Origin: Diphasiastrum complanatum
Lineage: Eukaryota > Streptophyta > Lycopodiopsida > Lycopodiales > Lycopodiaceae
Assembly (NCBI GenBank): GCA_029204225.1
Contig: CM055104.1
Coordinates: forward strand, 53,483,165-53,547,164
Direction: 5' to 3'
DNA length: 64,000 nucleotides
The translations under genes were made by a program, and so were the position numbers. The notes beneath the pieces were generated by a model. The model was not told the DNA's origin, did not search any database, and saw nothing but the letters and a program-made list of their open reading frames with translations. Below are positions 5,193 through 27,761 of the stretch, in pieces. Numbering within the stretch: the stretch's first letter is position 1; every line of letters begins with the position of its first letter.

Positions 5193-5387
5193 TTAGCGGA
5201 TTTGGGCTCCACAGCGTGTGCAGAGTATTTCATGATGGCTGCTGCAGCAGACAGGGATGAAGCAGAAGCGGCACTCTGTCTTCACCCTTGAGTTACTAAG
5301 CTGCCCTCCGCATCTGGGGCAGAGGCCCTGAACAGGCTTGGCGCTCTTCACCTTGCGTATCTGGTCACAGATGAAGCAGAAAAACAT
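5193..5387 (-). CDS. Small Cys-rich zinc-ribbon-like protein, copy A
   Basis: A 64-residue protein starting MFFCFICDQIRK. It has four Cys clusters: CFIC near residues 4-7, CPRCGG near 23-28, CRFCFIPVCC near 38-47 and CTRCG near 56-60. The pattern, size and N-terminus (aromatic run, then a basic stretch) match a family of 60-70 residue plant proteins sometimes mislabelled methionyl-tRNA synthetase; the function is unknown and metal binding is inferred from the CxxC pairs. The start was chosen because copy B (26,674-26,868) is open only from this Met; upstream in-frame codons here extend to 5,642 but are low-complexity and not conserved. The copies differ at Ser33/Ala only, so coding constraint is likely. 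The frame is complete. Confidence 0.7.
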   Translation of the reverse strand: MFFCFICDQIRKVKSAKPVQGLCPRCGGQLSNSRVKTECRFCFIPVCCSSHHEILCTRCGAQIR

Positions 5388-5800
5388 GATGGATGGATGA
5401 ATAGCCTCCCTTTCCTTCAGATCTCTTGTAATTTCTTCTGTCTTCTCGCCTCCCTTTCCTCGCCTTTTCTTCTCTTTCCTCTGCCTCGAAAGCAAAGACT
5501 GATTGAAACGGAGGAGGAGCATGCATATATATATCTGTATGGATAGTCGGGGGGTAAAGGCACGCGGTATCTTAAGCCCGCGCGCCCTTGGATGCTTGCC
5601 ACGACTCAAAGGGAGAGGATTTAGCGGTTGATCTATACACACGTGGAAAAATTTTAATGGCTTTGGTGTATCTAACGGTGCGTGTCAGGTCATGAGACGC
5701 TGACACCTGTAACCGCGTCACCCACAAACCTCCCTCTTTAGACGCGCCACTTGTCCGTGCATGGAATCTTCCCGATCGACACGTGTCAGGATCTCAACGG
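5388..5800 (-). promoter_or_regulatory. Promoter of zinc-ribbon gene A (TATA and G-boxes)
   Basis: On the gene strand there is a TATATATAT box at 5525-5534, about 140 bp upstream of the ATG, followed by a pyrimidine/purine-rich leader. Further upstream are two G-boxes (CACGTG) at 5640-5645 and 5780-5785. The same order is kept at copy B, which has one extra G-box where this copy reads CACCTG. G-boxes are bound by bZIP and bHLH factors in light, ABA and stress responses; such regulation is an inference from the motif. Confidence 0.55.
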
Positions 5801-6090
5801 TGAAGGTGCGCTGTGGAGGGTTGCACCACGAAGACAGAAAGTTCCAGAATTTTTCAGAATTGAAATCAAAATTTTACAAAAACTAGGGGGATTGTGGCAA
5901 GCCACTTGGCCCTGCCTTAAGTTGGTATTTTATTTTGTATTATATGTGTTAGCGTGGATGTAAATGTGACACTAAAAAAAATTGTCTATTTTTATTAACA
6001 AAAGATGGGAAAACTCATCGTAGTACAAAAAATTGCATGTGGGAAGTGTGAATGTTAGAAGGTGGTTTAAAAGTTATTGTTTAATGCAAG

Positions 6091-6430
6091 TCACCAAGTA
6101 GGGTAGTTGCAAGTTGTCCTAGTTTTTTCCAGGAATGCGATGACAATAATGCTACTCTTTATGTTGAGCTTCATAGAAGCAACAATACTTCCAGCAATAG
6201 AAACCCGATGAAGGAGGCTTACATGATATAGATAATAATGAATTGGTGAGTGGTCACTCCAATAACAATGCGTGACTCCGTAAAAAAATTTTCGAGTTAT
6301 GTACATGTGCATTTGTCCATATATGATCTAACTAACTTTTTGAGTTGTGTGCATTTGTCCATATATAATCTAACTGGCTTCCATACAATGTTGTTGGTGT
6401 AGTGATAGTTTGTTGAAAACTATGCATGAA
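6091..6430 (-). pseudogene. APE-type endonuclease remnant (C-terminal part)
   Basis: The minus strand encodes ...YGVTHCYWSDHSPIHYYL..., with the catalytic SDHxP motif at 6241-6258 that closes the exonuclease-endonuclease-phosphatase fold. The region aligns with the better-preserved N-terminal part of the same domain at 23,606-23,930. Such endonucleases nick DNA in LINEs and in Helentron-type transposons; its place at the 3' stem-loop end fits the latter. The upstream half with GDFN is replaced here by unrelated sequence after about 6,480, and a tandem duplication (about 6,293-6,375) disrupts the frame. Confidence 0.55.
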
Positions 6431-8809
6431 TGTCGTGAGATGGTTGGCATGGTTGTTGCAAGCAAGCATATTGATATTGAAATCTCCAAGAGAGTTAATT
6501 TCACAATTTAATAAGTACTATTTAGATTGCAAGAAAGAGATATCCATTGAAGTTTGAAGGGTAAAAGTACCATTTTTGAAGCCAATAAAGTTAAATTGAG
6601 GGAAGAAAGCAACCCTGAGTTGAACTTTCATACAGTATCAACCAAAGAGAGAAATTATCTGATATCAAAAGATCTCTGATATATTTGTCTGCCGCAATGG
6701 AAAACCTTGAACGAGTATTTGCACATGAATAAAATTCCATCATCAACAGTAGAAAGTTGACATACACCTCAAAATATACTATGTGAGAGCTTTAGCGGAG
6801 AAAAACATAGGCAAATCGGTTTGTTCCCGATGATATATGCCAATTGAGGTATAATATGATAAGCTAATTCCAAACTTTTCAGAACAGGAGAGATTCCATA
6901 GATAATCAGCTCAAGCTGTGAGGCACATTCGTCTCTTGATAAACTCCCTTTTCAAAGACAAAACTATTGAGGGCTTTTTTAGATCCCTTCCTTCCCCCTC
7001 CATGCAATCTTACCATTTGTGTCATTTGTGTCTCAGACTATCATGAAGAAGATTATTTGAGACTTTATGATAACATTCTTGATTGGTACTTGGTGAATTT
7101 CACCTAACAGTTAACAAGAACAACAAGCTCACTTTTATATTTTCAATGGTAATCCATGAGATCTTCTTTCTATATACGACACTGACAAATGAATTGTGCA
7201 CAAATGTTTAGCTTGAATCTGCTCTCACAACCACAGTAGATGATGCATGCAATGAAAAATAAATGCTATAGCTCATAGGCTTCATGTCACTAAGCCAAAT
7301 TTCACTTCCAAGTTCATAATCAAGAAGTTGCATGAAGGTTTTCAAGTGCCACCCTCTGAGGAGTCTATGAAGGTTTGAAGTCAATGTACTCACAAGGGCC
7401 TACAATACAACGCTTCCTAACCAAGTCACTGGAAATGTTTAACCCAAGATTTGATCATGGGATAGGATTTAGACTTTGTAGGGATAGTTGGCTCAATAAT
7501 CAGTTATATACTTCTAAGACCAATAGCAATGAATCATTGTGAGCTTCTATCATCTCATCTTCACATGGGTGAAGAGACTTTTTTTCCCTGAATATGCAAA
7601 TATTTGAAACATAGAGAAGTAGAAAGTCATTGGTTTTTAAAGCCTTTATGATGGCTGTGGATCTTGTAATGGAAATAATCCTGTTATACATACTTATTCA
7701 CGATCTTAAATGTGAATGTCTAAGGATTTGCCACCTATTTGCACAGAATATAGGATCAGAGAAGTTTACAAGAACAATGTCAAAATTTGTTGCATGTATT
7801 TGTTACTCAAAACAATGTCCCAAATGGACTTGCAACTGATTACAATCTGATTAAGTATACTGGCTTTTGTTATGCAACATACGTAGCAGTGTCTACATTG
7901 CAAAGGTTAACCTATCCTAGGGATCTTCATAACATTAGAGTTGCACTTCAACTTTCTGGCCTCCTTCCAAAATATGCCCAATGGCATTCAGATCTATAAC
8001 TGTTGCTAATTCTAGTATACCCCAAATCAATCAACCACATGTCCTTTTGATGCCCACATAGTCAATAATACCTACAAAAGTTGAACACGTCAATCCCACA
8101 TAGCTTCAGATATCATGATACCAGATGTGCATTTTCAAGCTAAAAACATTTTGTGTATTTGATGTATAAGCAATAGTACACTATATCCTCTGACCATGAG
8201 GTTGCACATCTTGGGTGCAGTTGAGCGCTGTGGCAGAATCCAGCAGTTTGATTAGCCTCATTGCTTTTCGGAAGAACGAACAAGAAATGAGAAAGAGAAA
8301 TATGTAAGAAACTCCAAGTAAGGCTTTTGGAGGAGAAGATGGACCGTGATAAGCTACCAAACTAGCTGCCAATTCTCTCTGTTTTCATGGGCATGAACAT
8401 CAAAGCCATCAACCTAAACTGGTTTGCAACTCAAAAAGCTAGTCTGCTACTCTGAAAATAAGATACTAGTAACTCCAACCTCCAAAACATTCACGCATCA
8501 GATGCCGAGACTGGATAAAACACTTGGAGTCCATATTCAAACAAGGTATCTGAAACATCATCGAATAATAATGTAGCTTTTCACAGAGATGCAGATAAGG
8601 CAACAGGTTATCTTGTCGCGATGATGATGCAAATTTCTGAGGGATAATGGCATCATAATCTTGTAGAATCACTTGAGGCTGGGTTATTTACAGAGTATTG
8701 CAACCTCCGATAGTTAGGATAATCTTTATCTTCTTTTGATAATAGGACAATCTTTGATGCTAAGAAAGATCTTGTCAATCAAAAGGGAAAATCCATATAA
8801 TCTTTGATG

Positions 8810-9085
8810 CTAATCAAGATCATGTGAATCAAAAGGAATGTTGGTCTCTGGTAGCCATTGGGTTCCTTGGATGAATCTCTGCACAGAGAAGCCTGAAGTT
8901 TCAGCTGCTGTTAATTGCACAGACCGACCCACTGTGAGAGAGAAGTTTCCACCAGGGCCGTAACTGTGTAATGTGCCATAATACAGTGTTGCCAAGGCAT
9001 AGTCTCCATTCCAAGGCTTCCATCCCTCATGGTCCACCAGTGCCCCCATGAAGGTCTCTATGTAAATCGTTCGAGAATACTGCCG
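8810..9085 (-). pseudogene. Pectinesterase C-terminal exon fragment
   Basis: The frame reads RQYSRTIYIETFMG then GWKPWNGDYALATLYYG, GPGGN and FIQGTQWLPETNIPF before a stop at 8810. These match, in order, the C-terminal ~90 residues of plant pectin methylesterases (QYSRT..., GW-PWNGDFAL-TLYY, GPG, F--G--WLP-T-VPF). The enzyme demethylesterifies wall pectin; the active-site Asp/Arg region lies further upstream and is absent. The codon before RQYSRT is TAG (9086-9088), where the family has Trp (GRPW-QYSRT), preceded by codons reading GRP; this is either a nonsense change or a splice junction. No other pectinesterase exon is present. It lies inside transposon A, on the same strand as the transposon, and is read as a captured fragment. 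Confidence 0.75.
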
Positions 9086-9679
9086 CTAGGGACGACCGAG
9101 TCAGTACGATAGTGTGAACGTGATGCCGCTAAGGTAGCATTATACTCTGCAGGGCCGTCAATGCTACAATTGTACTTGAAACGCCACAGCTTGGTAAGCT
9201 TATGGCCCCGATGTGTTCTGTATTGTCATATCGCCAAATCTTGGGCTATAAACTCCGCCCCGCTTACCCGAGTTGCAGATTGTGTGTGAAGATGTAAAAC
9301 AACAATAGCCTCGAAACTGGGCCAGAACAGATTATGCAAAAATTGGGAAATTGCATAGTGAACGCAGATGGTATTATAACTCCAAAATTGAAAACCACCT
9401 GATAGAATCTATCCTGGCTAAAAGCATTCCACAAGATCTTGTATGATCCCCTTGCAGCTGCTTTGCATGCATGCGAACAGGAACCCAGCCATCCATGCAG
9501 GAAGCCACGCGGACAGGAGACATGAGACATGCAGAAACCCACGCGGACAGGAGACAAGAAGCCAGCGCAGATTTAGCAAACTATGAAATTCAATACAAAT
9601 TCCAGAAATTAATTAGAACACAAGCACGTCAATTTTGTGTTGTGTTTACTATGTGCCCCTACTTGTAAGGCAGGGCCAA

Positions 9680-10260
9680 AAAGTAACTATAGCAAAATTA
9701 TGGAAAATTAACTATGATACCCATTACCATATGTATTCAAATTTTTACCATATGTATTCCGCTCACGAAGGGAGTCCGGGAAGGGCACTAAAATTGAATA
9801 AAGTGATGAGATATTGATTTTTATTTTTTGATTATTAATAGTTTGGTAATAGCATATCTATTCAATTACTTGAAAATAATAAAAAGAAATTGAGAAAAGT
9901 GATTAAATATTGTTTATTACTTGTTAGTCACACACACATATATATATAGATAATGGATATTGACCAACCATGCCACATTTCATGGATCAGCCATTTCTTG
10001 CCACGTTTCATTGATCAACCATCCTTGTTGTGACACTTGGCATATTGTAGTGCATACATTTTTAGGTTTTGCTTTGCTTTACTTATGAGATTAGGGCAGC
10101 ATTGGAACTTGATAGGCATTACTTGTCATTGCATTTTGAAATGTAGGTAAAGGCTTTGGGTGCAGGTCAAAAGACAAAGGAGCTTTTTGAAAAAACATCG
10201 AAACTTTTTACATAGAGAAATGACAAACACCCTTCAAAAAAAGGACATTGAAGGTCATAC
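9680..10260. repeat. Block A right part (duplicate of 27,587-27,975)
   Basis: From about 9,793 (TTGAATAAAGTGATGAGATATT) the sequence matches 27,592-27,975, including a CA/TA microsatellite at 9932-9952. It is noncoding and continues the host sequence interrupted by transposon A. In block B the same sequence follows the zinc-ribbon promoter directly. The similarity fades after about 10,180. Confidence 0.65.
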
Positions 10261-12930
10261 CATTCAATTTGAAAGGTAACACTTTGCAAGTTTGAGAAAC
10301 CTTGCTCGAGGGAAACATATAAAGTCCAGGCGAGGCATGGCTAAAAATAAAAATAATAAATTTTGTGGACTCTTTTTTCACAAGTGTTATTTATGGGTTT
10401 ACTTATGTTGAGAAACTAGGGGGTTTACTAGTTTATTATCATGATTGTTTTCAAGCGTCAAATCTTATGGATTCTATGTATATAAACAAGATGATTGATA
10501 TATCACGAGAAGCTTTGCATAGGGCATTCAAATTGTTAAAAGCAAAGATTGCATTGATTTATTTTAGTTCTTAAACTCAAATCTCAGCATAGTCACATGC
10601 TAATATCCATTCAGGATATCCTTAGTTTCAACTTTTCTTAGAGCCAAGCTTTTGCTTGAAGGATCAACTACTAACAATGCTGAACCATAGCAAACACAAA
10701 CTCACAATGGTTGCCCACATCAATTTGTAAGAACACAATAGCTACTTCATTTTTGGTATGCAGGCAGTACAATTACCCAAAAACTAACATCCCACACCAA
10801 AATTCAGCCTCCAAGAAATCCCCACATAGACGGACTAGTGTATGAGCCTAAATACATAATGTTTTTGAATACTTGCTCACAAAAAAGAACCAAATTTCAT
10901 ATGTTGCATCTATGTAGAATTCTTCTTTACTGAATTGTTCTCAAAACTTCTAACAAATAATTATCTTTTTCGTAAAGTAGGTCAGGATTTGAACAATATC
11001 AGACGATCAACATAAAAGCATATCAACATACCTCTATCTTCAGTGACTACCATCTCTCGAAGGATTACTTGACATTACGACTATAGGTACTTATCCTTAA
11101 CATTTTATTGGTATTGCAGACTATTGTACTTCAAATTACACTGTGTTTAGGGTTTTCATAGAATTGGATAGGATATAATTGGAATTGGACTCATATATGA
11201 GCAATTACTCCAAAAGGTCGAAGACATTAAAAAAGAAAAAATCTATATCATAGAATGCAAGTACAGATAAACTAGTAAACTTGCAGCTGAATCGAATATG
11301 GGAAAATCTATATTATAGAACATATAGAGAAAATACTAACCTTGCACCTGAATCGATTGTATAAGGTTAGCAATCTAAGCTAAATGTAATTCTTCCATTG
11401 CTGAATGTTATGTGCCCAATTTGGATTTAAATGATAACAGTTGGGGCTCAGTGCCCAATTAGCAAGAGATTGCTAATGCCTCTGTCCATAAATGTCTAAT
11501 AAATGCTAGATAACGAGTGTGAGGGCTTATGTTCTGATGACGGTTCATTTGTAACTCTTCCCCCTCCTAATAAAGTTACTCTCCTCATTATGGATATGAA
11601 AATGAGGAAGGGCGAATACAAACTAAAAATAGTTGAAGAATATGTACTATTGAAACTGCACTGTAGAAATTGCAACATGTGAATGGACTGCTGCTTAATG
11701 AATCAAGATGGGCAATGCATGGCTGGATGAAAGGATATTACACTGTCAAGGATAGCTCAATGTTTTAAAACCTATCAACCTATCAACTGTAAACACAAAG
11801 TCATGAACACAAAGAAGGCATTGTTAGATACCCTAAAGGTTTATCAACATCAAGTCGTGAGTAGAAAGGGCAAGGACGTGTTACAAACAAGTACATGTTT
11901 GAACAATTATAGTGGAGGGCATAAAAAACATGTTATAGACAAGTACATTTCTAAACATTTTTGGTAAACACATTTTCTAGCCTGGTCCAATGAGTTCAGA
12001 TTCATGTTAAAATACCCTCCTTCCATTGCAGTAGAGTAGAGAGGTCTAGTCAGAATGTGCTTGGTTTCCAAAAAAGACATGCATTTAATACGTCCAGATT
12101 AAGAACTCTTCAAAATAATATCATATTAACTTTGTTTTACAATCTTGACTCGGTCCATTCTACTAAATCAAAAAAAAAATGTTTGAGGTCATGTTCCAGC
12201 ATGCAAAGGACTAGGAATGCCAAGAGGAAAAACTATGGCACTAAATAGCATCGTGGCTGAAAGATTACACCTCACATCTTCATGTGTTTGTTGTTGCACC
12301 TTGTGCAAAGTCAAACATGTACAAGTTAGAGAGGTCAATTGCACATGAATGGACAATTATTTGCAAGGCCAATCTCCTGCCAATTTGCGGGATACATGGA
12401 GGATGTGCTCTCAAAGGACAACCAGTCAAAAACTTCAGGAGGGATTCTATTAATAATACGCTCATCCTTCAATGAGATCAGCCACCTTCAACATAGAAAA
12501 GCCCCATGTGTGACACTGAGCATACAAAAAGCGGAAAAAATGCACGTTTGAAATGTAGATACCTATATGCAATTCATCTTGCCGTGTGTGGTAGGCCTGG
12601 CTGTATGTCCGCAGGATTTGCATTTTTCATCTCCTTTTTCAAATTGCCAAATGCTAGTTTGAAATGCATTTGGCGATGCCGCCTGAAATATGCATCCTTG
12701 TTTGGTAGTTGCTCTAGGCCAACAGCCAATCGAGCCAACATACTCTTGGCTGCCTCTGTCAAGAGCCACCATTAAAATGTCTCCTTGGCCATGAATTTGC
12801 AAAGTCCCTTGTTGTCTGACCACATGCCAAGGCACTCTCTAATTTCCTTGTCACTAGCAAAGATAGTCAGTTTATCTTTCTTTCTACAATCAATTACATA
12901 GTTATCCGTGGTGTGCTTTGTGAACATACA
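10261..12930. other. No recognisable gene
   Basis: AT-rich single-copy-looking sequence with short unrelated open frames. The only frame with balanced composition is minus 12,563-12,835 (overlapped by minus 12,574-12,762), which I cannot assign to any family. No LTR, tRNA or intron-exon pattern was recognised. Confidence 0.4.
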
Positions 12931-13192
12931 TGTTAGAAATCAATGATAAATTTCATTGTTACTGTTTATGATGTACATTAATGTTGACAATTGTGACCAG
13001 CTGTCATTAGCCGTAGGCTAGTCTATTAGTCTACTCATAGGTTTTCTCTCTCTATCAGGGTTCATGGTTTATTTGTACATTCTACATTTTGTATGAGTTA
13101 GTGTGATAGAGTGATAGTGCATGTTCTTCTTCCGCCTTCTTGTGGTGATTGCTTATGGTGAATTCTTGATGTTGCATATCTAATTCTTGACA
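12931..13192 (+). repeat. Short Copia LTR (262 bp)
   Basis: It begins TGTTAGAAATCAATG and ends ...ATTCTTGACA directly before a tRNA-Met primer site. A CT-rich stretch follows the middle. This is the 5' LTR of a small-LTR Copia element whose 3' LTR is not in the window, so the start relies on the terminal TG and the family's habit. Confidence 0.65.
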
Positions 13193-13203
13193 TGGTATCA
13201 GAG
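13193..13203 (+). other. Primer binding site (tRNA-iMet)
   Basis: TGGTATCAGAG immediately follows the LTR's terminal CA. It is complementary to the 3' end of plant initiator tRNA-Met and primes minus-strand synthesis. Confidence 0.75.
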
Positions 13204-13873
13204 AGATTTCCCAAAGATGGAGCAAGAAGAGCCAATGACATTCTTGGTCTTGTTCATAGTGATCTGTGTGGACCAATACAAACTAGGTCCATTAGTGGTT
13301 GTTACTATTTCATCACATTTATTGATGACTATAGTAGACATATCTACATTTATTTCATAAGCAAGAAATCTGATGCTTTTGCCAAGTTTAGAGACTGCAA
13401 GGCTCTAGTTGAAAAACAAACAAGTTGTTATATTAAGCCTCAGATCAGATGGTGGCGGTGAGTATTTTTCAACAGAGTTTATAAATTTTTGCAAGGATCA
13501 GGGTATCAAGAGACAAACTACTACACCCTATTCACTACAACAGAATGGAGCTGCAAAATGGAAAAATAGATCCATTGTGGAGATGGCTAGGGCATTGCTT
13601 AAGAACAAGAGTTTGCCAAATACTTTTTGGGCAGAAGCATGCAACACAGCTACTCATATCTTGAATCGGTGTCCTACTAAGTCCGTGGAGGGTAAGACAC
13701 CTTACGAAGCTTTTACTAGAAAGAAACCTAATGTTTCTCATTTACGAGTATTTGGTTGTGATGCTTACACTCATGTGCCTGATAAAAAATGAAAGAAGCT
13801 GGATGCAAAAGCTGTTAAGTGTATTTTCCTTGGATACGATGAAAGAGCCAAGGCATACAGGATGTATGAGTAA
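13204..13873 (+). pseudogene. Copia integrase fragment joined directly to the LTR
   Basis: Starts as RFPKDGARRANDILGLVHSD and covers most of the integrase core: first Asp in VHSDLCGP, second Asp in RSDGGGEY, then QNGAAKWKNRS, where the third catalytic Glu (family: NGVAERKNR) is Lys. A frameshift lies at about 13,410 and a TGA at 13,790; the downstream part reads ...IFLGYDERAKAYRMYE. Gag, protease and the integrase zinc domain are missing between the primer site and this point, so the element is internally deleted. At 13,873 it is cut and joined to minus-strand gag of another Copia. Confidence 0.8.
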
Positions 13874-14157
13874 TGCATCCCACATCTCCTTAGCTTTAAA
13901 GAGTGTAGCCAGGTCAAGTGTGAGACTATCTTTGATGGAAGATGATAGCAAGGCTACTGCCTTGCCATTTTTCTCCCTCCATTCGCGTAGCTCCTTGCCT
14001 GTTGTCGTAGGCATTTCTTCTGTGCATCGTCCACCCAAGGGAATAGTCCTTCGCCCTTGAGTATCAGTGATGTCTTAACTCTCCAGGCTAGAAAGTTAGA
14101 TCCTAAAGAATCAAGTATTATGCAGATCTTGCTCTGCATGCTGCTGATTGAAGCCAT
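13874..14157 (-). pseudogene. Copia gag (UBN2) fragment
   Basis: Minus-strand reading starts MASISSMQSKICIILD, continues ...WRVKTSLILKGEGLFPWVDD, and after one frameshift (about 14,010-14,030) ...GKELREWREKNGKAVALLSSS...AKEMWDALL. This is the N-terminal part of a Copia Gag (capsid-forming UBN2 domain). The same family appears at 55,490-56,013 and 934-1,000. It is truncated at 13,874 where the plus-strand integrase fragment begins. Confidence 0.75.
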
Positions 14158-14261
14158 TGCTTCTTGGAGTCTGTTCCCTTGTTGATGGTTGTTTGTTTGA
14201 ATGCTTGGCCTCCTGGATCTGCTAGCTTCTTGGCTATGTCAGAATATGACAGGATGACCGG

Positions 14262-14306
14262 CTCTGATACCATTGATGAAAAAATAAGTGATATGCTCTG
14301 ATACCA
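14262..14306 (-). other. Duplicated tRNA-Met primer-site motif
   Basis: On the minus strand TGGTATCAGAG occurs at 14,296-14,306, one base inside the LTR boundary, and again (with CAATGGTATCAGAGCC context) at 14,262-14,272. The two starts are 34 bp apart. The same arrangement, 35 bp apart, is seen at 56,129-56,174 in the related element. Confidence 0.6.
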
Positions 14307-14307
14307 C

Positions 14308-15334
14308 TGATGAGAATCAGGAGGAGGATCACAGTCGCGAAGCTTTCACGAAGGAACTACGAATCTCTTACCCTCGGATGGAGTTCAGATGTGATCGCTG
14401 GACACTGCCAATTGAATCACTCCTACCGTCCTCCAGAGTGTAGTCAGACACTGCTGATCTACGTTTTATAAAATTAATGCAGCATTCAACATAGTATCAA
14501 CCAAGGTGCAAAATTTAAAAGAACAAGGAAACTTAGTTAGACACACGAATAAACAATAGACACATTTGCATTCGAAATCAAACACAACAAGAAAATCATC
14601 TATATTGACCTTTATCTGATTTCTTCAAGCACTGCATGCAAATCCATGCAGTGCGCTGGCGTGGGAGAAACACAGTTCTCTCACGAGCAATCGTCTCGCT
14701 TTACTAGCGGACAGTTGGATCTACAGATCCTAGACAGAATTGTCTTCGCACGCAGGCGGACATGTATTCTGTATTTCGTCTTGATTGCTTACTAGCATCA
14801 GACTACTACGTTACACTGTATGTGTGCTCTATTGATCGATATGTCAAGTAACATCCAGTAAGTAAAGTCGCTCTATGTAATTCTAAGATTAGAGTAATTA
14901 AGCATCTACAACTAATCAGGGAAATACAAGAGTGGCAGATTAGCCACAACCCAAAATGTATCTACTGACGTCATGCCATCAGATCATATATCTGTACTTT
15001 TGGGTACTTGCATGATCTCGCTGGTACTCTCTGGAGCGTGAAGGACACGAGAAGGTCTCGTTTTGGTTGTTTGCCTTCTCTCATATTGGACTGCAAAAGA
15101 TTCTCGTTCATAAATCTTTCGAGTTCGCAAACCGTACGTCTTCATCTGTGCGACTTTCGAGTTCGCGAACCGTTTGTCTTCGTTCCTTCGACTTTCGAGT
15201 TCGCGTCCCTTTGACTTTCGAGTTCACAAAATTTTTTGTGCTTCATGTCTCCTGACTTTCGTGTTCGTGAACATCTTCGTCAGGCTAAGGGCTGAAAGCT
15301 AGCAAGGATTTGTAGTTAGAAACATTTCGTTTCT
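14308..15334 (-). repeat. LTR-like sequence of the minus-strand Copia
   Basis: The boundary at 14,308 (TGATGAGAATC) follows from the adjacent primer site. A TGACGTCA palindrome lies at 14,966-14,973. Positions 14,461-14,840 are repeated, diverged, at 15,335-15,720 (shared landmarks: TTTAC TAGCGGAC, GCAGGCGGAC/GCATAGGCGGAC). The outer LTR boundary could not be fixed. Confidence 0.5.
15114..15282. repeat. Minisatellite (GACTTTCGAGTTCG units)
   Basis: Five diverged units begin near 15,114, 15,152, 15,190, 15,213 and 15,254 (spacings 38, 38, 23, 41). Each starts (GA)CTTTCGAGTTCG or a close variant. It lies inside the LTR-like sequence and is probably an LTR-internal repeat. Confidence 0.7.
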
Positions 15335-15960
15335 TCATGTTATAGATTAATACAGCATTCAACAAAAAAACTGAACCAGAGTGCGGAATAGATAAAACAA
15401 GTGAGTGAGATACACAAGCGATAGCAGACAATAATTTATTCAAGATCAGACAAAATTAAAAGTGATATGTGCGTAATAGCTACAGTATCATCTATTGATC
15501 CTCTTGTTTTTGAGCGTTGTATGACAGTCTACATAGCGCATTGGCGTGAGAGAAAATAGTGTTATCTCATGAGTAGCATCTCGCTTACTAGCGGACTTCT
15601 TGGATCTCGGTAGATCCTGCTTACAAAATTGTCCCCCGCATAGGCGGACTTCTATTCTATATTCTGTATATTTTCTATCTGCTACTGTATGTATCTTATA
15701 CACTTAGATTAGCAAACCAAATTAGATAGACTAAACAATCTATTGGATTCTATGCTCTGTGTCTGTGATAGTTATACGTACAGCTCTGTTTGATGAGCGG
15801 TAGTATTTCGCCATCCGTCAGGTCTAGGTGTTTTGCTAGACATTTCCAACAACAGTGGGTGTGACTAGTGAGACTTGACCAAAGCAGTGTATTTCGGCCA
15901 CATTTGGTAGACTGCCCGCTCTTGTGTTTCAAAGAGGTCAGGTCCAATTTTTGTTTTTAA
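15335..15960 (-). repeat. Second, diverged LTR-like copy
   Basis: Matches 14,461-14,840 in order: ACAGCATTCAACA, GCATTGGCGTGAGAGAAA, CTTACTAGCGGACT, GGATCT, GCATAGGCGGAC, then TATTCTGTAT. The offset is about 875-890 bp. This suggests two LTRs of related elements side by side, or one LTR pair with its internal part lost. No coding sequence. Confidence 0.5.
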
Positions 15961-17460
15961 CTTAGCAACAATAATGACATGCTTGCTCAATTTTGCTTTT
16001 CATAACACCCATCAATAACACATGAGAATTGAGTAGTATCCACTAACTATTCATCTTCCGTTCAACAGGGAAACAATTTTTTCAAATCATGTCACGTACA
16101 ATGATACCAGTGATATAGCTAGCATGCTAAGAATACTACGATAAACATGCATATCATTACATTCTACATACTTCGGTAAAGCTACACACTTGTTAACTCA
16201 AATGGATATGAAATAACAAGTACGTGTTTCTAAACATCAAAGACCCATACAAGCTAAGACAATCAGGTTGTCATTATCGTATTTCTTGTAGTTAACAACC
16301 CTTCATGCATCACTTTACATACCTTCATCCTTTAGTCTAACCTGTTAGCAGTGCTTCATCATGCATAATTGAAAGCATGCACATGTACCATAGTAAGCAT
16401 TCCATTCAGATTACATTCATCATACACATAGCAACTATGAGAAGAAACATTACCAAAGGTGTGATTGAGAAAAACCAGCTTATCGCAAGAGGTGTCTAGT
16501 CATGAATGTGGAGGGCCTCCTCTTGCATTGCTTTACCACTTTTGCATTCTTTCATCTATCTGGCATTGACGGACATTAGAGGTGTATTCCGCAAAAGTGT
16601 TGATCTGGTTGGAAAGTGTGAGGTTCTAGACAGCTCGCTTCAAATGCTCATTACGAATCGTTGGTGGTGCAAATTCTACATTAGTTGTGATCTAGATTGA
16701 TCTCTCTTGTTGCTGTGACTTTCAACACAGGTGTGTTGATTCAGACCAACCACTCATCAACGCAAGTACCGTGCCCCAGAAATGCGCTTGACTGGCAACA
16801 GAAATACACTCTTAATTGGCTTGCTGACTGACAGCAAAAGTGCGCTCAGAAGTCAGCGAAAGTGCGCTTAGCGACGGAGGGAAACCTCACATCTGAATTT
16901 TATGATAGTAATTTTGTTCATGGAGGGCTCGGAGTGTAGCGATGGAACATCCTCTCTCATGCAGGGCAGCGCAGCTCTGGATAGTAATCATGATTGCTTA
17001 CAAAGGTGTTTTCATTATAGCCCACAGTCTTTACTCATGATAGATCAGTGCTCTGACAGTAGCGTTGGAGGCAGTATCATAGGAACTAGTGTTGACGGAG
17101 GCCTCCAGAAGTGCGATGGACTAGCTCGTATAGAATCGGGTGGCTCTCTCACAGTAGTTCTTAGTCATTGATGCGTTACTGGAGCAGCGATTGGCAACTA
17201 TGAAGTGTTGGTAGTGGTAGGTCGAGCTATCATCAAATGATGAGAAATTTGTTCACAGTTGTGGGTTTGGGCAGGCGATGAGGTGCATGAAGTTCTCTTC
17301 CTTCAAAAGTTTCGAGCTGAAAGGCTGGTGAGTAGCCCTTGTTCCAACTCGTGTTGATATTGCTCTGTGGAACGATCTCTAATGGTTTAGAGTGGCCTTG
17401 CTCCGTAGAGCTCAAATAACAGGTTTCAGTAGATACTGGAAAACAAACTCGCCTGTCAGC
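15961..17460. other. No recognisable gene
   Basis: Unassigned sequence. Open frames at 16,506-16,700 and 16,902-17,171 have no recognisable motif. Confidence 0.35.
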
Positions 17461-17785
17461 CTACTCAACAAAAGGTGAATTCTCATTTGTAGTATTTTGT
17501 GGTTTTGATGCGGTCTGTTCTGCTGCAAGCTTCTTCCTTGTCAGATATAAATGTGTAGCATGCGGAAATTCTGGTTCAAGAGAAAAGCAATCCGGGGAAA
17601 ACCTTCCCCTCAATAGATGTCTCGATTGTATATCCATAGTGAAATACATCATTGATATTGGTTTCAAAGATTCTCTCTTCAACAGGGTTTACATCAAAAA
17701 TTGGCGATCTGCTACAATCTGCATACAACTCACTGATAGAGGGATAGCTGACTGCATAAAAGTTGTTGGAACATCGGTTGAGCAA
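17461..17785 (-). pseudogene. Unassigned degraded coding-like segment
   Basis: Two overlapping minus-strand frames give a plausible continuous protein if one frameshift near 17,580 is allowed: upstream ...PVEERIFETNINDVFHYGYTIE..., downstream ...PEFPHATHLYLTRKKLA.... Composition is protein-like (balanced, charged, aromatic), unlike the neighbouring noise. I do not recognise the family. It could be an exon of a host gene or chance. Confidence 0.3.
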
Positions 17786-17989
17786 TGTAGCTCAGTTGAT
17801 CAGTGATGGAGTAGAGTTATATGACAACGTAGCTTTTTGGATTGCGATCAATAGCAGGTCCGTGACTAATATAGACACCTACCTTCGGTGATTGGGTAGC
17901 CCAGATAGCAATGAAGGAGCTCAGCTACATCCTCATTGCATTGCTTGAAAACTCGATTCTGAAAATGATGGTTGTTCCATGACTTTCCC

Positions 17990-18123
17990 TTCAACGTGCT
18001 CAAAAAATCTTGTGTCAACAGATGACATCGTGACATCGTTGGTCATCCTTTACATCTTCAACGTGCTCAAAAAATCTTGTGTCAACAGATGACATCGTGA
18101 CATCGTTGGTCATCCTTTACATC
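17990..18123. repeat. Perfect 67-bp tandem duplication
   Basis: TTCAACGTGCTC...TTTACATC (17,990-18,056) is repeated without change at 18,057-18,123. Perfect identity implies a recent event. Confidence 0.95.
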
Positions 18124-18129
18124 ATGCTT

Positions 18130-18484
18130 ATAAGCTCATTCTACCAACTGATTATATTGATGAAGCGAGGATACTCAAGGTGGTAGATTCACCATTTATG
18201 CCATCTCACTATGTATGTGGAGTTCTTCTAAAATGCATGTGCCTCTCTAATAACCTTTCTCCAAGTCTCAACAATGAAAAGAACCTCAACCAATGGAGTC
18301 CCAATCATAGTATAAGCTCATTCTACCAACTGATTATATTGAGAATACTCAAGGTGGTAGATTCACCATTTATGCCATCTCACTATGTATGTGGAGTTCT
18401 TCTAAAATGCATGTGCCTCTCTAGTAACCTTTCTCCAAGTCTCAACAATGAAAAAAACCTCAACCAATGGAGTCCCAATCATAA
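18130..18484. repeat. 182-bp tandem duplication
   Basis: ATAAGCTCATTCTACC... at 18,130 recurs at 18,312. The second unit lacks 8 bp (GATGAAGCGAG-type stretch) and differs at a few bases. It sits 6 bp after the 67-bp duplication, so this short region duplicated twice. The open frame at 18,180-18,509 exists only because of the duplication. Confidence 0.9.
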
Positions 18485-19665
18485 AAAAAACCCTCAACTC
18501 ATGGCATAGAAGGAATGCTATACAACCATATGCTCAAAGAAGAATTTCTCTAATTAGCAATCTCCTTCATTACAAACTTTACAAACTCTCATGAGTAAGA
18601 GTGTATTTATAATCGAAAGGTATTCCTCACAGATTATGAAAAGTTACAAGCATAATCCAAGAGAGTACGAGAATTCAACAACAACCTCGTCTTACTTCAT
18701 ATAGAATATCTCTATCTCTCAAACAATTGGTCTCTCTTAAGCAAGCTCTCAATATCACTCTTGAACCAAATTGAGCTCTCAAGAAACACTCATCGTAAAA
18801 CTCTTAGCTCCTCGAAACACTCGTCACTGTCCAACTATTGAAATATTTGCCATACTCCAACTATTCAACTATTCCACTTCTCGACTCTCTTCGACTATTC
18901 GACAATTATGTTTTTGATACAATAAGTGGACTCTCTTATATAGCCAAACCCCAAGGGTTGCCCTTCAATATGACATTTTGTCAATTGTCATGCATTCCGT
19001 ACCTTCTTTGCCACATGTTCTTCCCTTATTAGGGTTCACCTATTTTAGTAGATTCCCCAACTTGCTCCCCTCTTCCAAATAGGGTGTTCTTTGGGTTTTG
19101 GAGCTTAACAACCTTGAAGTTTATCTTTTCACGCTTCTCAAGATTGGCTCTTCGTTGCTTTCCCCAAGTGGTTCTTCGCTTAGATTGCCTTTTGCAAAAA
19201 TAGTATGTGCTTAGGGCAAGGAACCTTTTTGCCTTATCTTTGTTAACCAACCTAGTAGCTACTAGTCAACCCCTATGGGTGTAGCTGTCCCATCATTTTC
19301 TTTGCTCGGTTTTTCATATTGTCGGTTTCCTATGTTGACGGCTTTTCCATACATTCATACTGCTTGGCCTGTTGGTTTGTCTGTGCTCGAAATTATCTTG
19401 ACCTTGTCGTTAGGATTTCCATGGTATTTTGAGCCTGTTATAATATTTTTGGTGACGAAATTTTCAATGTATTTTTTCTTCGCTGGTTCTTTTCTTGAAA
19501 CTGGCTTCTGTAACATTCATGACTAGAGCTTTTCCAACAAACTGGTTTTTTTGCAAATACACTAGGTAAACATATATTAGCAAAACAGCTTTGTACATGG
19601 TGAAATTTTAGCACGGCTATGTCGGCTATTTTTACAACTGGCTAGAAAGCCACAAAACATTTTTA
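18485..19665. other. No recognisable gene
   Basis: Low-complexity AT/CT-rich sequence with repeated CAACTATT and CTCGAAACACTC words near 18,780-18,900. Nothing assignable. Confidence 0.35.
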
Positions 19666-19670
19666 CAGGG

Positions 19671-20420
19671 TGTTGGAGGATTTGCGGATCTCAAGGCAAC
19701 CCTAACCCTAGTTAATAAGTGAGAGGGATTTGGCACCTGCGTGTGTAAGTCCAACCCGATGATCACACAGTTATTTGATTGATTAGTTAAAAGTCAATAA
19801 AAGGACTTTAGGCCTTTTTGCGGGACTTTTAATGTCGCAGGGCCTAAATGTCAAGTTAGTGAATAAAGTTGGGTTTCCCTCCAATTTTGATGGTTCCCAC
19901 ACTTTTTTAAATTTGAATAAAAAGAGAGGCAAGACTGGACCAATAGGATTCAGAGGCCAGGGTCCTCCTCTCTACTATAAGAAGGGACCAACTCGAGTTG
20001 CTCCTCATGTTCATTTTCTCATTTCAATAAAGCAGATTGGTTCTCTTCAGAAATGGATTGATGAATGTCCTTGCTCTTCTTCTTTCCTTCTCCATCTCTC
20101 ATGCTTTCTTTGGATTTTGCTAATTATTGGATCTGAATGTTATTGGGATTGAGTGTTATTATACTTTTTATGAGAGAGAAAGAGAGAGAGAGAAAGAGTG
20201 AGCTATCTTTGTCGTGAATCGTAGTGTTAATGGATCTTAGTGTTAATGAGTAGGGTTAATGGATGTAGAGTTAGATTTAGATCTTCCATTCATGCTGAAA
20301 TCTGAACTAAACTATCACTCTCATGGGAACGAACCTACGCGTGACAACTAACTCCGTCTCTATGATGCTAGATTGACTAGATCTTAGATTCAGGTTAGGC
20401 AAGGAAAGAAACCCACTACA
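19671..20420 (+). mobile_element. Solo LTR (Gypsy, tRNA-Asp family) with perfect TSD
   Basis: A 750-bp LTR from TGTTGGAGGATTTG to ...CCCACTACA, flanked by CAGGG on both sides (19,666-19,670 and 20,421-20,425). It is the same family as the LTR at 29,825-30,571, which is followed by a tRNA-Asp primer site and gag. Solo LTRs arise by recombination between an element's two LTRs, removing the inside. Orientation was taken from the relative. It contains a GA-rich AGAGAGAAAG tract near 20,170. Confidence 0.93.
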
Positions 20421-20425
20421 CAGGG

Positions 20426-20871
20426 CATTTCTAAGGCCACAAACTTTTTCTCTAGCCTCATTAAGGGCGGGTTGGGACCCACTTCTAAGCGGACCAGCAC
20501 TTTTCACTCGGCTTTACATATATCAAATATTTTTTACGGTTCTTGAGACCATCACAAAACTACTATAACTTGTCTAGCCACTTTAGGGGTAGACTGGGAC
20601 CCTTTTACAGAGGCAACTATCTGTCGATTTTTTGCTAATAACCGGGTTTTACATGCCGGTCTTTTGCAGTTTTGAAAAAAGAAAGCCCAATATTAGTCCG
20701 AACTTCCGTGCAAAAATATTGGCTAACAGACTGGGACTACATTCTAGCCACCTACCTAGTCTTGGGCCTTCCTCAGTCCTTTTGTTCCTTCTTATGAGCC
20801 CTCTACTCGTCTTCTTCTTCCTCTTCCACTCTCCTCTTCAATGAGTGGCGCTCCTCCCTCTTCTTCCCTAA
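20426..20871. other. No recognisable gene
   Basis: Sequence interrupted by the solo LTR continues here. It has repeated GGGTTGGGACCC/AGACTGGGACCC words (about 20,470 and 20,590) but no assignable family. Confidence 0.3.
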
Positions 20872-21616
20872 GTGCGATATTTGTCAGGGCTGTCCATTGT
20901 CGGATTTGCCCCTTCTTCTTCTGTTTTGGATGGGTGGGAGACCTCTCTTGACCAATCCCTTCTCGACTACTTGGCTTCTCAGCTTCGTCGACATCCTTCT
21001 CTTTTTTTTGACTTCCTTAACAAGGCTTGGTCCCATTCTCCTACCCTGTGGCGTATAAGATTCAAGACCGCCTGCTCTCTCCCTAAGGGTAAGCTCAGAT
21101 ATCTAGCCTACCACATCCTCACCAATGGCCCTTTCTTTCAGATCACCTTTGCCCACTCTACTAGCTGGAAGAGGAGTCTATTGAGCACCTTTTTTTCAAT
21201 TGTCGTAGAGACTTGTGGTTGAAAGTCCATGGTCTCCTTTGTTGCTGGGTGTCACCCTGGCTTATTTATGGTTGACACGGTCATGTTGGGAGATCCACGC
21301 ACAATATTTACTTCACTTCTAGCATCTGTGTAGGTTGGCGGCTTTATGGCTCATATGGTTGGCACACAATCGCCAAGTTTTTGATGGTTCATCATGGTTT
21401 TTGGTGACGGCTTGTTTGTGACTTGTTATATATATTTTTACTGTTGTTTAGATCTATTGAACTACCTCCCTGTGTGGTGTGCTATATGTCCTATAGTTTT
21501 TTGTAATGCACCCCCTTTGGGGGTTGCTTACTGTTTCGGCCTTTGATTGTCATTTAACTTCTATACATGTATATTTGTGAATATATAATAGTATCGTTAA
21601 GCTTTGCAAAAAAAAA
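20872..21616 (+). mobile_element. LINE (L1-type) 3' end, block B copy
   Basis: Frames in this stretch encode the end of a LINE ORF2: DFLNKAWSHSPTLWRIRFKTA and then, after frame changes, an EEVY...APFFNC-like zf-RVT segment with RRDLWL. The 3' UTR ends GCTTTGC followed by an A-run (21,608-21,616). It corresponds to 2,530-3,142 in block A but retains about 130 bp (21,050-21,180) that block A has lost. Dead by multiple stops. Confidence 0.75.
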
Positions 21617-23228
21617 GACAATCTAAAAAACTAATCTTGATTATGCTCAAAAGAAAAGTTGTTCAAATCATTTAAGATCAAATATGTATGCTAGGATTTT
21701 GTTTCTAACCATAAAATGTCTAGAATCTAAAAAACCATGGCATAGATTGGCTTTTGGAGATCAATCTTTGTAAAAACCTCTGCGAGCCCATTACGATGTG
21801 ATCATATTGCAACAAGATTTGTGAAGGTTGAGGACAATTTTATTGAGATCTAATGATTTTTGCTTAATATGCACTTGTTGTCTGAATTAACCTTCGCATG
21901 GCTTCAAAATTGACAAGGAATTTCTCATACACCTCTGAGAAAGCCTAACTTGGCATTTTGGAGAAGAGACTCAAATAGGTCTCACTAATTTGAGTCACCA
22001 CTTTCCACACCAATTATAAGCTTTGAAAAAGATGAGAGGAAGGTCAAATTTGGTCACCGAGTGACTTTTTTTATTTATTATAGATAAATATTTGTAAGTT
22101 TTTCCAAAAGGGGATGAAAAATTATATTTCAAATGTACAAACATTCTAAACATTTCAATTTTTCCAGGACTCAAGTTTTTACTAAGTTGAGATGTACACA
22201 TTCACAGAAAATATGTTTCTGTTTGGGAGAGTTCATGATATTGTTGATCTTCAAGCCCCAATTTGTTGGGTAAACTAAATGTTCTCACATCACTATGCTT
22301 TCAATGGTCTATTCCTGGGAGTCTATTTCATGTATTAAAGCTTCAATTGTAAATGATGAGATTAATTAGTGATAACATATTCAAACTTTCAAGCAATAAA
22401 ATTTGATGAAACTAATTTTTGTCACACAATCAAATTTGAACAATAAAAAAATGAATTGAATATCAATAATTAAATGATACAAACATTAAACATATTTAGC
22501 TTTCCAAAAGATATTAAGATGACAAATTCTCGTGGAAGTCGTGTAATTCTCTTGCTTAAGCCAGCTTATGATACTTTGCCAAACTAATATATGTCTCCAT
22601 GCAAACCGCTTAAAGATATCCCATCCTCGGTCACCTTTCCACCTACCATCACACAAATCCCCCAAAACTAGTTCCAAAGGATGGTGAATAATGGACAAAT
22701 TAAATGTGGGTGATTCTTAAAGCTCCACAATGCTAAAGGGATTATTGGAAGTTCTCATGCATGCATTTGATGTGCAATACTTACACTCCCATCCTTATTA
22801 ACATCATTCTTCGTGATATAATAATCAAAATCCTCCTAAGTAAAACACTCTCATGCATGCATTAATGTTGACCAATCAAATCCTCGTTTCCAAATTGAAT
22901 TTCCAATAAGTTCACATGAAAAAGTCCTCGTTTTCAATAAGTATACATGGAAAAGTTCTCAAGTGGTTCTTTGAACCCCTCTCTATTTTTCCTTTTCAAG
23001 CATCCCACTTATAACTCTTGTCAGCTGACTTTGATAAATTCACATCTATCCCCCTCCCTTTGTTTTATGGATTGTCATACTAGATTGATATTAATAAGCA
23101 TTCATGCAAACCCCCCATATTACTAGCATATCTTAATGGATATTAGAAAATCTTCATTTGTCCAATCTCTTCAATTTGAATTAAGCCTAATGAGAACATA
23201 ATTAAAATTTCCAGTCTATTAACTAACG
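21617..23228. repeat. Block B noncoding flank (duplicate of 3,143-4,370)
   Basis: Collinear with block A from the LINE A-tail to CAGTCTATTAACTAA, where transposon B begins. It has several additional segments absent from A (for example about 22,200-22,440). No gene. Confidence 0.75.
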
Positions 23229-23605
23229 AGTGAGTGTGGCAAGCCACTTGGCCTGCCTTAAGCTGGTATTTTAATTTTTTTACATGTGTTACAATATATG
23301 TGAATGTGGTAAGAAACTAAATTGTCTATTTTTATTAACAAAAGATGAGAAACCTCATCGGAGTACAAAAAATTGCATGTGGGAAGTGTGAATGTTTTTT
23401 GGTGATTTAAAAGTGACTGTTTGATGCAAGTCACCAGGTAGGGTAGTCGCAAGTTGACCTAGTTCTTTCCAAGAATGCAATAACAATAATCTAACTCTTT
23501 ATGTTGAGTTGTATGTGAAGCAACAATAGTTGCAGCAATGGAAACCCGATGAAGGAGGCTTACATGATATTTGGGTCATTATGTAGGTAATAAATTGGTG
23601 AGTGG

Positions 23606-23930
23606 TCACTCCAATAACAGTGTGTAACTCCGTAAAAGCGTTTCGAGTTGTGTGCATTTGTCCATGTGATCTAATTTGCTTCCATACAATGTTGTTGGCA
23701 TAGTGATAGTTTGCTCGAAACCATGTTTTTGCATGAATGTTGTAAGATAATTGGTGTGGTTGTTGCAAGCAAGCATATTAATATTGAAGTCTCCAAGAAT
23801 GGTTGTTGGTGTTGGTATGTCTGTAGATGTATTTTGTAATATATCATCTATTGTATTCAAGAAACACATCATTTTTTAATTCAGTTTTCGATACACTGCA
23901 AGTACAATCATATCGTTAGCAAGCATCACG
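23606..23930 (-). pseudogene. APE-type endonuclease remnant (N-terminal/central part)
   Basis: The minus strand reads IVLAVYRKLN, a TAA, then MMCFLNTIDDILQ...TILGDFNINML (GDFN at 23,780-23,794), FMQKHGFEQTITMPTT and SKLDHM. The order VYR - GDFN - F-x-x-QxxxxPTT - S-x-LDH is that of the exonuclease-endonuclease-phosphatase domain attached to LINE and Helentron-type transposases. The Asp of GDFN and the Asp-His of LDH are catalytic in the family. The frame shifts after LDHM; the SDHxP end is recognisable only in member A (6,241-6,258). Confidence 0.7.
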
Positions 23931-24207
23931 TGCACTAACGTAAGTATTGTTCTTCATGAATCATGCATACTCAGAGTCAATATTTTCAGGTTGGAAGCTC
24001 AAATGTTTCTATAAAATCCAAACAAAGGATAATACGGCCAAAAGCAGATGATGTCAGAATTAGCATGGATCTTATTACCATATTTATCATGTTTCTTTTG
24101 AAAGTTTATCGTAGATGTCCGTGGCGCTTCATCAGATATATATGAAGAAACATCTCGAATAAAGCTTAAAATGATCAAGCGGTATTTCTTTTATTTTCAA
24201 CTTGGAA

Positions 24208-24495
24208 GGATTCGAGGCGATCAATTGGCTGAATGCCATTGTAGGATTACTTGTCTAGTTGTGGTTTTATCGCTTTTGGCAAAACCGGAGCTCACCTGGT
24301 CCAAAAGCATGGCCCATATTCGGATCCATGTTTGAACTGGTCACCAACGTGAAGCAGTTGCATAATTGGCTTCTTAATAATTTTGAGCAGTCTCACACCT
24401 TCAGAGTCCCGACCTTTGAAAGAAGTTATATCTATATTGTTGATCCGGTGAATGTGGAGTACATATTAAGAAAAAATTGGAATATGGCAAGGTAG
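24208..24495 (+). pseudogene. Cytochrome P450 first-exon fragment (CYP86 clan, CYP704-like)
   Basis: Reads GFEAINWLNAIVGLLV, a TAG (24,256-24,258), then LWFYRFWQNRSSPGPKAWP followed by IFGSMFEL and YIVDPVNVEYILRKNW. The hydrophobic segment is the ER membrane anchor, PGP is the proline hinge, and DPVNVEYIL is the conserved N-terminal motif of CYP86/CYP704 fatty-acid hydroxylases. The stretch ends ...MARG with AAG|GTAGCA, a plausible splice donor. No heme-binding exon or start ATG is present. It is a non-functional exon inside transposon B, on the strand opposite to the transposon. Confidence 0.8.
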
Positions 24496-25847
24496 CATTT
24501 CATGCTATTTTTGCATGCTCATCAAGGACGCTTTAATCATCAATGGATTTGAGTTATGTCTAGTTTCATGATTGACTTTTTTACAAGTATTAATGTGAGA
24601 CACCTTTTGGGAAAACCAATATGATGAAACTTTTGTTATAGGCAGTTAGGAATATTTTCATTTGTCTAAAATCGACACTCTGTGTTGCAATCTATGAGGA
24701 GCTTTAACTGGAAACAAATAGAGCAAACCGAAGTACACATGGCCTTTTCATGCAAGGTCATGCAAACTATGGTATACCACTCCTGATGAAGTGAAGAGTT
24801 CCTGTTTGTGGAAATTGTGGTGGTATTTGCAAGATAAAGGATTGTATCATATTATTGAGGTGTCGCACTTCGTAACACCTGCAGATGCTTTTCCTATAGA
24901 TTTATTAGAGAATTTTTCTTCATTGACATTGGCAATTAGAATTTCAAGACACAAGCACACGTACGATTCAAGGTGCTGGGTCTAACATACGTCCCGTAAT
25001 GGATATAGCCCATAGGTCGAGTTTTTTTTAGACATTACCGTCAACACACAATTGCTTATATCACAATATACCATCAAAATTTATTGTATCAACTATACAA
25101 CCAATCGTATCATATGTTATAGCTTGTACTAAAGAAATGGTCGTGTGTGTCGTTTACAAAAGTATGCATGCAATTTGAGGCTGGAACATATGATTTGTCT
25201 CCTTATTCAGGAAGTGACAAAAACGCTGTTATCATATATATGGAAGACTGAGCACCTAATTCGTAGTTGGTGAACGTACCTCTCTATGGGATCTGCGAAT
25301 AAACTCACGTTTGGTCACAAAATACCGTGAGAAAAGGTGGTATGACGTAAAAATGAGGCACGATGACAGTAGTAGCCTCGAAGCTGGGCATAAACAGATT
25401 CAAATGCAAAAATGGGAAATTGCATAAGCTCCAGGAAGTGGTGATGGCTTTAAAAAAAAGAAAGAGGATATGGCAGACTGCACATCGGAAACACAAGCAT
25501 GTATTATCTTCTAGGTAGAGAAGAGAACAGAATACATGCAAAAAGCCACGACAGAAGGTTCCACGCAGCACAATGCATGCAGGAAGGCACGAGAAAATCC
25601 ACCCAGCTACTACCATGGACAGGGTCCCCTGTCAGTGCATAAAGATTTATCTCTCAAAACAAATTTACCCTATTAATTCACTAAAACTACATTTACATTT
25701 TGTTAGCTGTTTCGTAAATAAAAATCAGTATAAATATTAGATTAAGTAAACCAAAAATAAAATTTTAATAATTATTTAGAACACAATCATGTCAACTTTT
25801 TGTTATGTCTACTATGTGCCCATAGTACCCCTTACAGGCAGGGCCAA

Positions 25848-26673
25848 TAAACATAGAACACAGCTATATATATATGTATCTAGTCCTTTTGTAACTTAGA
25901 AAAACATAATCCTTTCAGGATTTGAAAATTCAATTTGGAAAATTAGAAGTATTTACAAGTTAAATGTTGTCTTTGCTTATTGGGATTATGGATTATGGAT
26001 TAATCAGGCATCATATCCAACAAACAATCTGAGAAAAAATTGATGACAATCAAATTGAAAGATTTTAATAATGCAATACCATCAAATCAACTAATACTGC
26101 ACTGAATCAAGTAGATATTTATAACTTAAAAAACTCAATTACAACAAAGGTAGGGCTGGTAAATCCTTCAGTATCAAGGATATAGTTGATCAGCTCAGCT
26201 AATCATCTTACATGTTCCTACAGTACTCTGCTATCCATTTTACAGCATTAAACAGGAAGATGAAAAGAATTGATTACAGAGGTATCTTTGGTGTCTGAAA
26301 GTCATTGCTGTGCTCAGAGAAACCTCTATATGCTAGCAAGGATCATTAAACCCAAGAGTATAAAGCAAGGTTAAGACTAATTGGGCTAAATTGAATTTCT
26401 CTACAACGCAGACTAATCTGAATTAGGAATTTTCAAAGATTGTGGCACCAGAGTAAATCTCAACAGACTTCCAAATTGTGTTTCCTCAAATAAGATCCCG
26501 AAAGGAGTAAATCCTTTCTTGCAGCATAAAATCAAAGGCTACACAGCTTCTGATGATTGCAATGCCATTTTTTGAATCCAATTTCTCAATAGAATCTCGA
26601 AGATTCTTGCAAAACATGAAAGAAATATCAAACTGTCAATTCTTCACAGAGTAGTAGCGGTGTGTTACAGCCA
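25848..26673. other. Downstream region of zinc-ribbon gene B
   Basis: Resumes the block A/B alignment (about 25,862 onward equals about 4,402 onward). Noncoding 3' flank of the minus-strand zinc-ribbon gene. Confidence 0.6.
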
Positions 26674-27560: not shown

Positions 27561-27586
27561 TTGCACCACGAAGACAGAAACGTCCA

Positions 27587-27729: not shown

Positions 27730-27761
<32 letters not shown>

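Follow-up and report, generated by a model that had tools for sequence, protein, structure and literature searches.

We find that a 64,000-nucleotide stretch of the genome of the lycopod Diphasiastrum complanatum (assembly GCA_029204225.1, contig CM055104.1, positions 53,483,165 to 53,547,164 of the forward strand; hereafter the window) contains two elements, E1 and E2, that are very probably non-autonomous rolling-circle transposons of a single Helentron-type family, i.e., endonuclease-bearing and Helitron2-like, in a plant genome. A first-pass annotation of this DNA had proposed a Helentron/Helitron2-like family, and that proposal is supported by the arrangement of the ends, an endonuclease that belongs to the family, the insertion of E2 without target-site duplication, and middles that differ between the two elements. 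We lean, by a narrower margin of confidence, towards the broader reading that E1 and E2 represent a resident Helentron lineage of a plant nuclear genome, with an endonuclease under strong selection and non-autonomous copies that repeatedly captured host exons, in a group of hosts where a 2014 survey placed Helentrons in few genomes at most, with contamination possible.

Both elements lie in a tandem segmental duplication of host DNA (~2.5-10.2 kb and ~20.9-28.0 kb), detected by comparing the window with itself (self-BLAST with low-complexity filtering, E no higher than 1e-5) and not mentioned in the annotation. The elements and the duplicated segments are as follows.

5883..9679, minus strand: E1, very probably a non-autonomous Helentron-type element; 5' end at 9679, 3' end at 5883; ends in common with E2.
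23227..25847, minus strand: E2, very probably a non-autonomous Helentron-type element; 5' end at 25847, 3' end at 23227; clean empty site.
2537..10183, plus strand: copy 1 of the tandem host duplication (self-BLAST), which contains E1 and the empty site of E2.
20915..27972, plus strand: copy 2 of the tandem host duplication (self-BLAST), which contains E2 and a blurred E1 empty site near 27,588.

The same comparison matches the 3' sides of the two elements over 5890-6491 and 23232-23798 (E 1e-139), the block of ~590 bp described earlier on the stem-loop side, and their 5' sides over 9592-9682 and 25756-25850 (E 5e-11) and over 9306-9357 and 25373-25426 (E 7e-9). Between these ends the middles show no shared match at E up to 1e-5, consistent with the original description of common ends and dissimilar interiors. 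Of the 400-500 bp thought to be common on the 5' side, short blocks do match, and the full length can be aligned only with many gaps. The bounds first assigned to E1 are kept, and the left end of E2 moves by 2 bp, from 23,229 to 23,227, as its empty site indicates. An nhmmer model built from either end has two matches in the window (E up to 10), E1 and E2 only; neither these models nor a motif search finds a further family copy there, and no tandem repeats are listed inside either element.

The duplicated blocks are collinear in both copies, with E1 breaking copy 1 and E2 breaking copy 2 at different points, so that each copy displays the insertion site of the other element. The same difference in position leads us to reject a single element inherited along with the duplication. 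The E2 empty site is clean and falls between 4368 and 4369 of copy 1, which reads TATTAACTAA-TCAACATAA, compared with TATTAACTAA-[E2]-TAAACATAG in copy 2; there is no target-site duplication, and the register is ambiguous by up to 2 bp, giving a minus-strand site of A^T, T^T or T^A. At the E1 insertion point copy 2 lacks ~30 bp (5853-5882) and ~110 bp (9680-9790), either by deletion in copy 2 or by an earlier insertion in copy 1. Because the E1 site is blurred in this way, its 3' terminus, CTAG/T, is inferred from likeness to E2. With the end placed at CTAG, E1 is preceded by TTT and followed by TTTTT, which when joined would form a T run; the site, blurred as it is, reads T^T in each register, and T^T is the sole register that fits both elements. 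Each copy of the host duplication also carries a small open reading frame that looks zinc-ribbon-like (MFFCFICDQIRKVKSAKPVQGLCPRCGG...), whose 11 weak Pfam matches all fall short of the cut-off.

Read on the minus strand, both elements follow one terminal plan, with TTGGCCCTGCCT at the 5' end and, towards the 3' end, its inverted copy, then the GTGGCTTGCCAC palindrome, then ~10 nt. The parts of this plan are as follows.

9668..9679, minus strand: E1 5' asymmetric terminal inverted repeat, TTGGCCCTGCCT (motif search).
5906..5917, plus strand: E1 3' subterminal inverted repeat, AGGCAGGGCCAA in the direction of the element (motif search).
5894..5905, minus strand: E1 palindrome GTGGCTTGCCAC, 11 nt from the inferred 3' terminus.
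25836..25847, minus strand: E2 5' asymmetric terminal inverted repeat (motif search).
23248..23258, plus strand: E2 3' subterminal inverted repeat, TTGGCCTGCCT, one base shorter (alignment).
23236..23247, minus strand: E2 palindrome GTGGCTTGCCAC, 9 nt from the 3' terminus.

Exact TTGGCCCTGCCT sites are found at 5906-5917 (+), 9668-9679 (-) and 25836-25847 (-), and with up to one mismatch allowed these three matches compare with 0.20 expected, a count that none of 100 shuffles reaches; the fourth copy, on the stem-loop side of E2, is the one-base-short TTGGCCTGCCT. The inverted repeat near both ends, as first noticed, is thus borne out by motif counts against shuffles. The repeats are asymmetric in the manner of Helitron2 and Helentron ends (5' copy 0-2 bp and 3' copy ~20-30 bp from the end), with 23 bp between the 3' repeat and the inferred end of E1, and 21 bp in E2. 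The exact 12-nt palindrome directly follows the 3' repeat in both elements and occurs nowhere else in the window; even with up to one mismatch, GTGGCAAGCCAC is confined to 5894-5905 and 23236-23247. Both 5' ends read TTGG, and the 3' ends read CTAG in E1 and CTCG in E2. The predicted fold of each 3' end joins the repeat to the second half of the palindrome, and that of E2 is somewhat better than chance (8 of 200 shuffles at least as good). Of the stem-loop reported outside the repeat at one end only, the palindrome is present, and the folding predictions lend the loop itself little support. In E2 (23227-23260), the 3' repeat and one half of the palindrome could form a stem with each other (GGCAGGCC/GGCTTGCC, 8 pairs, one G-T) in place of the hairpin made by the palindrome alone, and 8 of 200 shuffles fold equally well.

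Four coding remnants lie within the elements.

6235..6490, minus strand: E1 endonuclease remnant with GDFN, LDYIWTN and SDHSPI motifs, carrying an internal duplication and a frameshift.
23560..24061, minus strand: E2 endonuclease remnant in two frames, with a TAA stop at 23560-23562; PF14529, 36.3 bits when bridged.
8813..9079, minus strand: captured pectinesterase fragment of E1, C-terminal part; PF01095, E 2.3e-19.
24259..24492, plus strand, antisense to E2: probable captured cytochrome P450 exon, N-terminal part; PF00067, E 0.038, below cut-off.

E2 retains far more of the endonuclease (24,061-23,560) than does E1 (6,490-6,235), and it carries three stops and one frameshift. When the frameshift is bridged, the E2 sequence scores 36.3 bits against PF14529 (cut-off 27.4), with the alignment extending to the final position of the model (117/117), and only 19.2 bits against PF03372, in keeping with the apurinic/apyrimidinic (APE)-type endonuclease remnant recognized earlier beside the stem-loop. 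The E2 frame has the same orientation as the element and ends 10 residues past SDHSPI, ~330 bp before the 3' end, with no reverse transcriptase after it; a stop so soon after SDHSPI fits a C-terminal endonuclease and not a long interspersed nuclear element (LINE), in which a reverse transcriptase follows at this point. Viral contigs give no match to the endonuclease, and a pattern scan of them yields 52 stretches, none confirmed.

We then find that the endonuclease carries the mark of purifying selection at the codon level. With the frame kept by excluding indels, the codons adjacent to them and the duplicate in E1, 62 codons shared by E1 and E2 hold 20 differences, distributed 5/1/14 over first, second and third codon positions (binomial p 0.0009 for the excess at third positions), which corresponds to a synonymous divergence (dS) of 0.467, a nonsynonymous divergence (dN) of 0.046 and a dN/dS of 0.10 (Fisher p 5.9e-7). 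Neither control has a codon pattern, the counts being 16/13/15 across the 326 aligned sites of the tail that follows the stop and 37/33/29 in a duplicated host flank, and no lesion common to E1 and E2 is seen where the two endonucleases overlap. A dN/dS of ~0.10 beside a patternless tail means that the endonuclease evolved as a protein under selection within the family before each copy broke. The codon test leads us to reject carriage of the endonuclease as passive cargo, and one-off uptake of a dead LINE fragment would not produce such a pattern; together with the bridged PF14529 match, this test indicates an APE-type endonuclease encoded by the family.

The remaining remnants appear to be host exons. 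The E1 fragment is, judged by its similarity, clearly a pectinesterase, as the annotation had it, with PDB matches to 1xg2_A (E 2.8e-19) and 1gq8 (E 7.9e-16), which we take to be tomato and carrot pectinesterase chains, respectively, and far weaker ones to two more pectinesterase chains, 5c1e and 5c1c (E 0.007). The P450 exon assigned to the other element is probable only: the PF00067 match lies below cut-off, no NCBIfam match is found, and the best of ten PDB chains is 3k9v (E 0.038), presumably a P450, with the remaining nine unrelated. A Helentron-type origin would account for these features if a Rep/helicase-endonuclease protein, provided by a partner element, nicked at the 5' TTGGCC end and peeled off one strand; transfer of the strand would end at the 3' inverted repeat and hairpin, and the product would be joined between T/A-rich target bases. 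Host DNA that the elements picked up may have taken the place of most coding sequence, so that the two ends and the final part of the protein gene remain.

Both elements have decayed. The Kimura two-parameter distance between E1 and E2 is 0.153 for the 3' ends, 0.149 for the non-coding tail and 0.212 for the outer 87 sites of the 5' side, similar to the range of 0.119-0.202 for six duplicated host-flank blocks; the simplest account is that the duplication came first and the insertion of E2 later. The earlier suggestion that the family is active or recently active finds no support here, with ends as diverged as the host flanks and both endonuclease copies broken.

Several observations weigh against a Helentron-type family. 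The copies known are two, both from one window, and the E1 empty site is not clean, being blurred by ~140 bp. No Pfam family, and so no Rep/helicase, is found in seven pieces of the middles (five from E1 and two from E2, two of them with a few mistyped residues at the start), a set that does not include every frame. Unbridged, the endonuclease pieces score 24.3, 17.5 and 16.4 bits, all below Pfam cut-offs, and two short SDHSPI pieces match no Pfam family; one search of PDB chains returns none at E up to 10, and a second returns five (best E 0.053), none of which is such an endonuclease. The kinship of the endonuclease is read from the PF14529 profile match, and the selection test is small, with 62 codons and 20 differences after removal of indel-adjacent codons. 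Shuffled sequences fold at least as well as the 3' end of E1 in 65 of 200 cases and as well as the 5' ends in 23 (E1) and 31 (E2) of 200, the 5' hairpins being no better than chance. Finally, the inferred 3' end of E1, CTAG, looks like a canonical Helitron end.

This last point bears on the alternative that survives best, a canonical plant Helitron family (Helitron1) into which a fragment of a LINE endonuclease was once taken up as passive cargo. The CTAG of E1 lies ~11 nt past the palindrome, like CTRR, the E2 site can be read as A^T, and plant Helitrons are usually canonical; however, the expected 5' TC, 3' CTRR and A^T target are not what we find, since both 5' ends read TTGG, E2 ends in CTCG, and the base flanking E1 is T, not A. 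Moreover, inverted repeats mark both ends, and to our knowledge Helitron1 elements have neither terminal inverted repeats nor an APE-type endonuclease. A dN/dS of 0.10 between two copies would also not arise in passive cargo, and we consider this explanation unlikely. A non-long terminal repeat (non-LTR) retrotransposon family of the LINE or short interspersed nuclear element type, with the endonuclease remnant its own, is markedly less likely again: PF14529 is named endonuclease-reverse transcriptase, and related endonucleases occur in LINEs (PMC4067079), but the ends of E1 and E2 are fixed and inverted, the frame ends just past the endonuclease domain, and the middles are unshared at BLAST E 1e-5. 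We reject it in the absence of both a reverse transcriptase after the endonuclease and a target-site duplication at E2. Least probable of all is a DDE-type cut-and-paste transposon (e.g., Pack-type), which would explain short inverted repeats near both ends and captured exons, as Pack-type elements also capture exons in plants, but is rejected on the asymmetry of the repeats, with 21-23 bp outside one of them, and the clean site without target-site duplication; we also know of no DDE element with an APE-type endonuclease under selection. The Helentron-type family remains our preferred reading of E1 and E2.

Other repeats occupy the second half of the window. A retroelement at 35089-43832, which from its parts we take to be copia-like, encodes an integrase (PF00665) and has three LTR-like copies (35089, 40557 and 43027); its 3' half is tandemly duplicated over 2.46 kb, 38670-41130 being repeated at 41127-43611 (96% identical). 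Direct repeats of ~497 bp (33772-34268 and 48811-49306, 94% identical) enclose it and are perhaps the LTRs of an older element that it entered. A further pair of ~550 bp, 4.6 kb apart (49975-50524 and 54578-55144, 93% identical), is perhaps also an LTR pair.

Among known systems, Helentrons and their non-autonomous copies (HINEs/DINE-1) are described in PMC4067079 with subterminal inverted repeats, a 3' hairpin, a T-rich target without duplication, a C-terminal PF14529 endonuclease and occasional gene fragments; E1 and E2 resemble them in the repeats, the endonuclease and the gene fragments, and probably also in a putative 3' hairpin and a T-rich target; unlike them, E1 and E2 show no Rep/helicase, and the host here is a plant. 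The same source assigns a mite Helentron endonuclease to PF14529, reports T runs at insertion sites of Helentron relatives, and, apart from examples annotated earlier, gives gene fragments only for elements of Culex and Phytophthora (PMC4067079). Helitron2, as outlined by Bao and Jurka (2013, PMC3627910), has its 5' repeat within 0-2 bp of the terminus, its 3' repeat 20-30 bp in from the other terminus and immediately followed by a hairpin, and a 5' hairpin; E1 and E2 resemble it in their asymmetric terminal inverted repeats (8-15 bp in Helitron2), the 3' copy directly before a putative hairpin and the 5' T, and differ in a 5' hairpin no better than chance and in the presence of an endonuclease remnant. 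The FoHeli elements of Fusarium likewise have asymmetric inverted repeats, the 3' one lying 20-51 bp from the terminus, and in FoHeli1/2 the repeats form part of a hairpin, as in the predicted 3' folds of E1 and E2; they differ in their fungal host, in other end sequences and in the insertion of FoHeli1/2 between TNAT and T (PMC5148889). That paper also sets Helentrons apart as a group that carries an endonuclease and has Helitron2-like ends (PMC5148889). Like E1 and E2, canonical plant Helitrons capture host gene fragments and insert without target-site duplication, and their 3' hairpin, ~10-12 nt from the terminus, has a putative counterpart in both; they are set apart by their 5' TC, 3' CTRR and A^T target (PMC5148889, PMC4067079).

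Elements of this kind are therefore already known; what is unusual is to meet them in a plant. The abstract of the 2014 survey names invertebrate, fish and fungal genomes for Helentrons and HINEs/DINE-1, and the survey has Helentrons not identified in most plants, with contamination possible for the few plant hits (PMC4067079). Examples of Helitron2 include elements from Chlamydomonas and its relatives, and Helitron-5_SMo (PMC3627910). Contamination would be hard to invoke for E1 and E2, because the copies lie inside a duplicated host segment, a plant-like gene fragment lies inside one of them, and each has its site in the opposite copy of the duplication. Helitron-5_SMo is presumably from Selaginella, and we found no literature linking Helentrons with Selaginella. 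The HELIANO survey of 2024 reportedly contains many new Helitron-like elements in land plants, and plant Helentron-type elements may already be described there. E1 and E2 supply ends with which to search, and the codon-level test of selection links the endonuclease to the family; if this family is numerous, it would give plants a second rolling-circle means of shuffling exons, in addition to canonical Helitrons.

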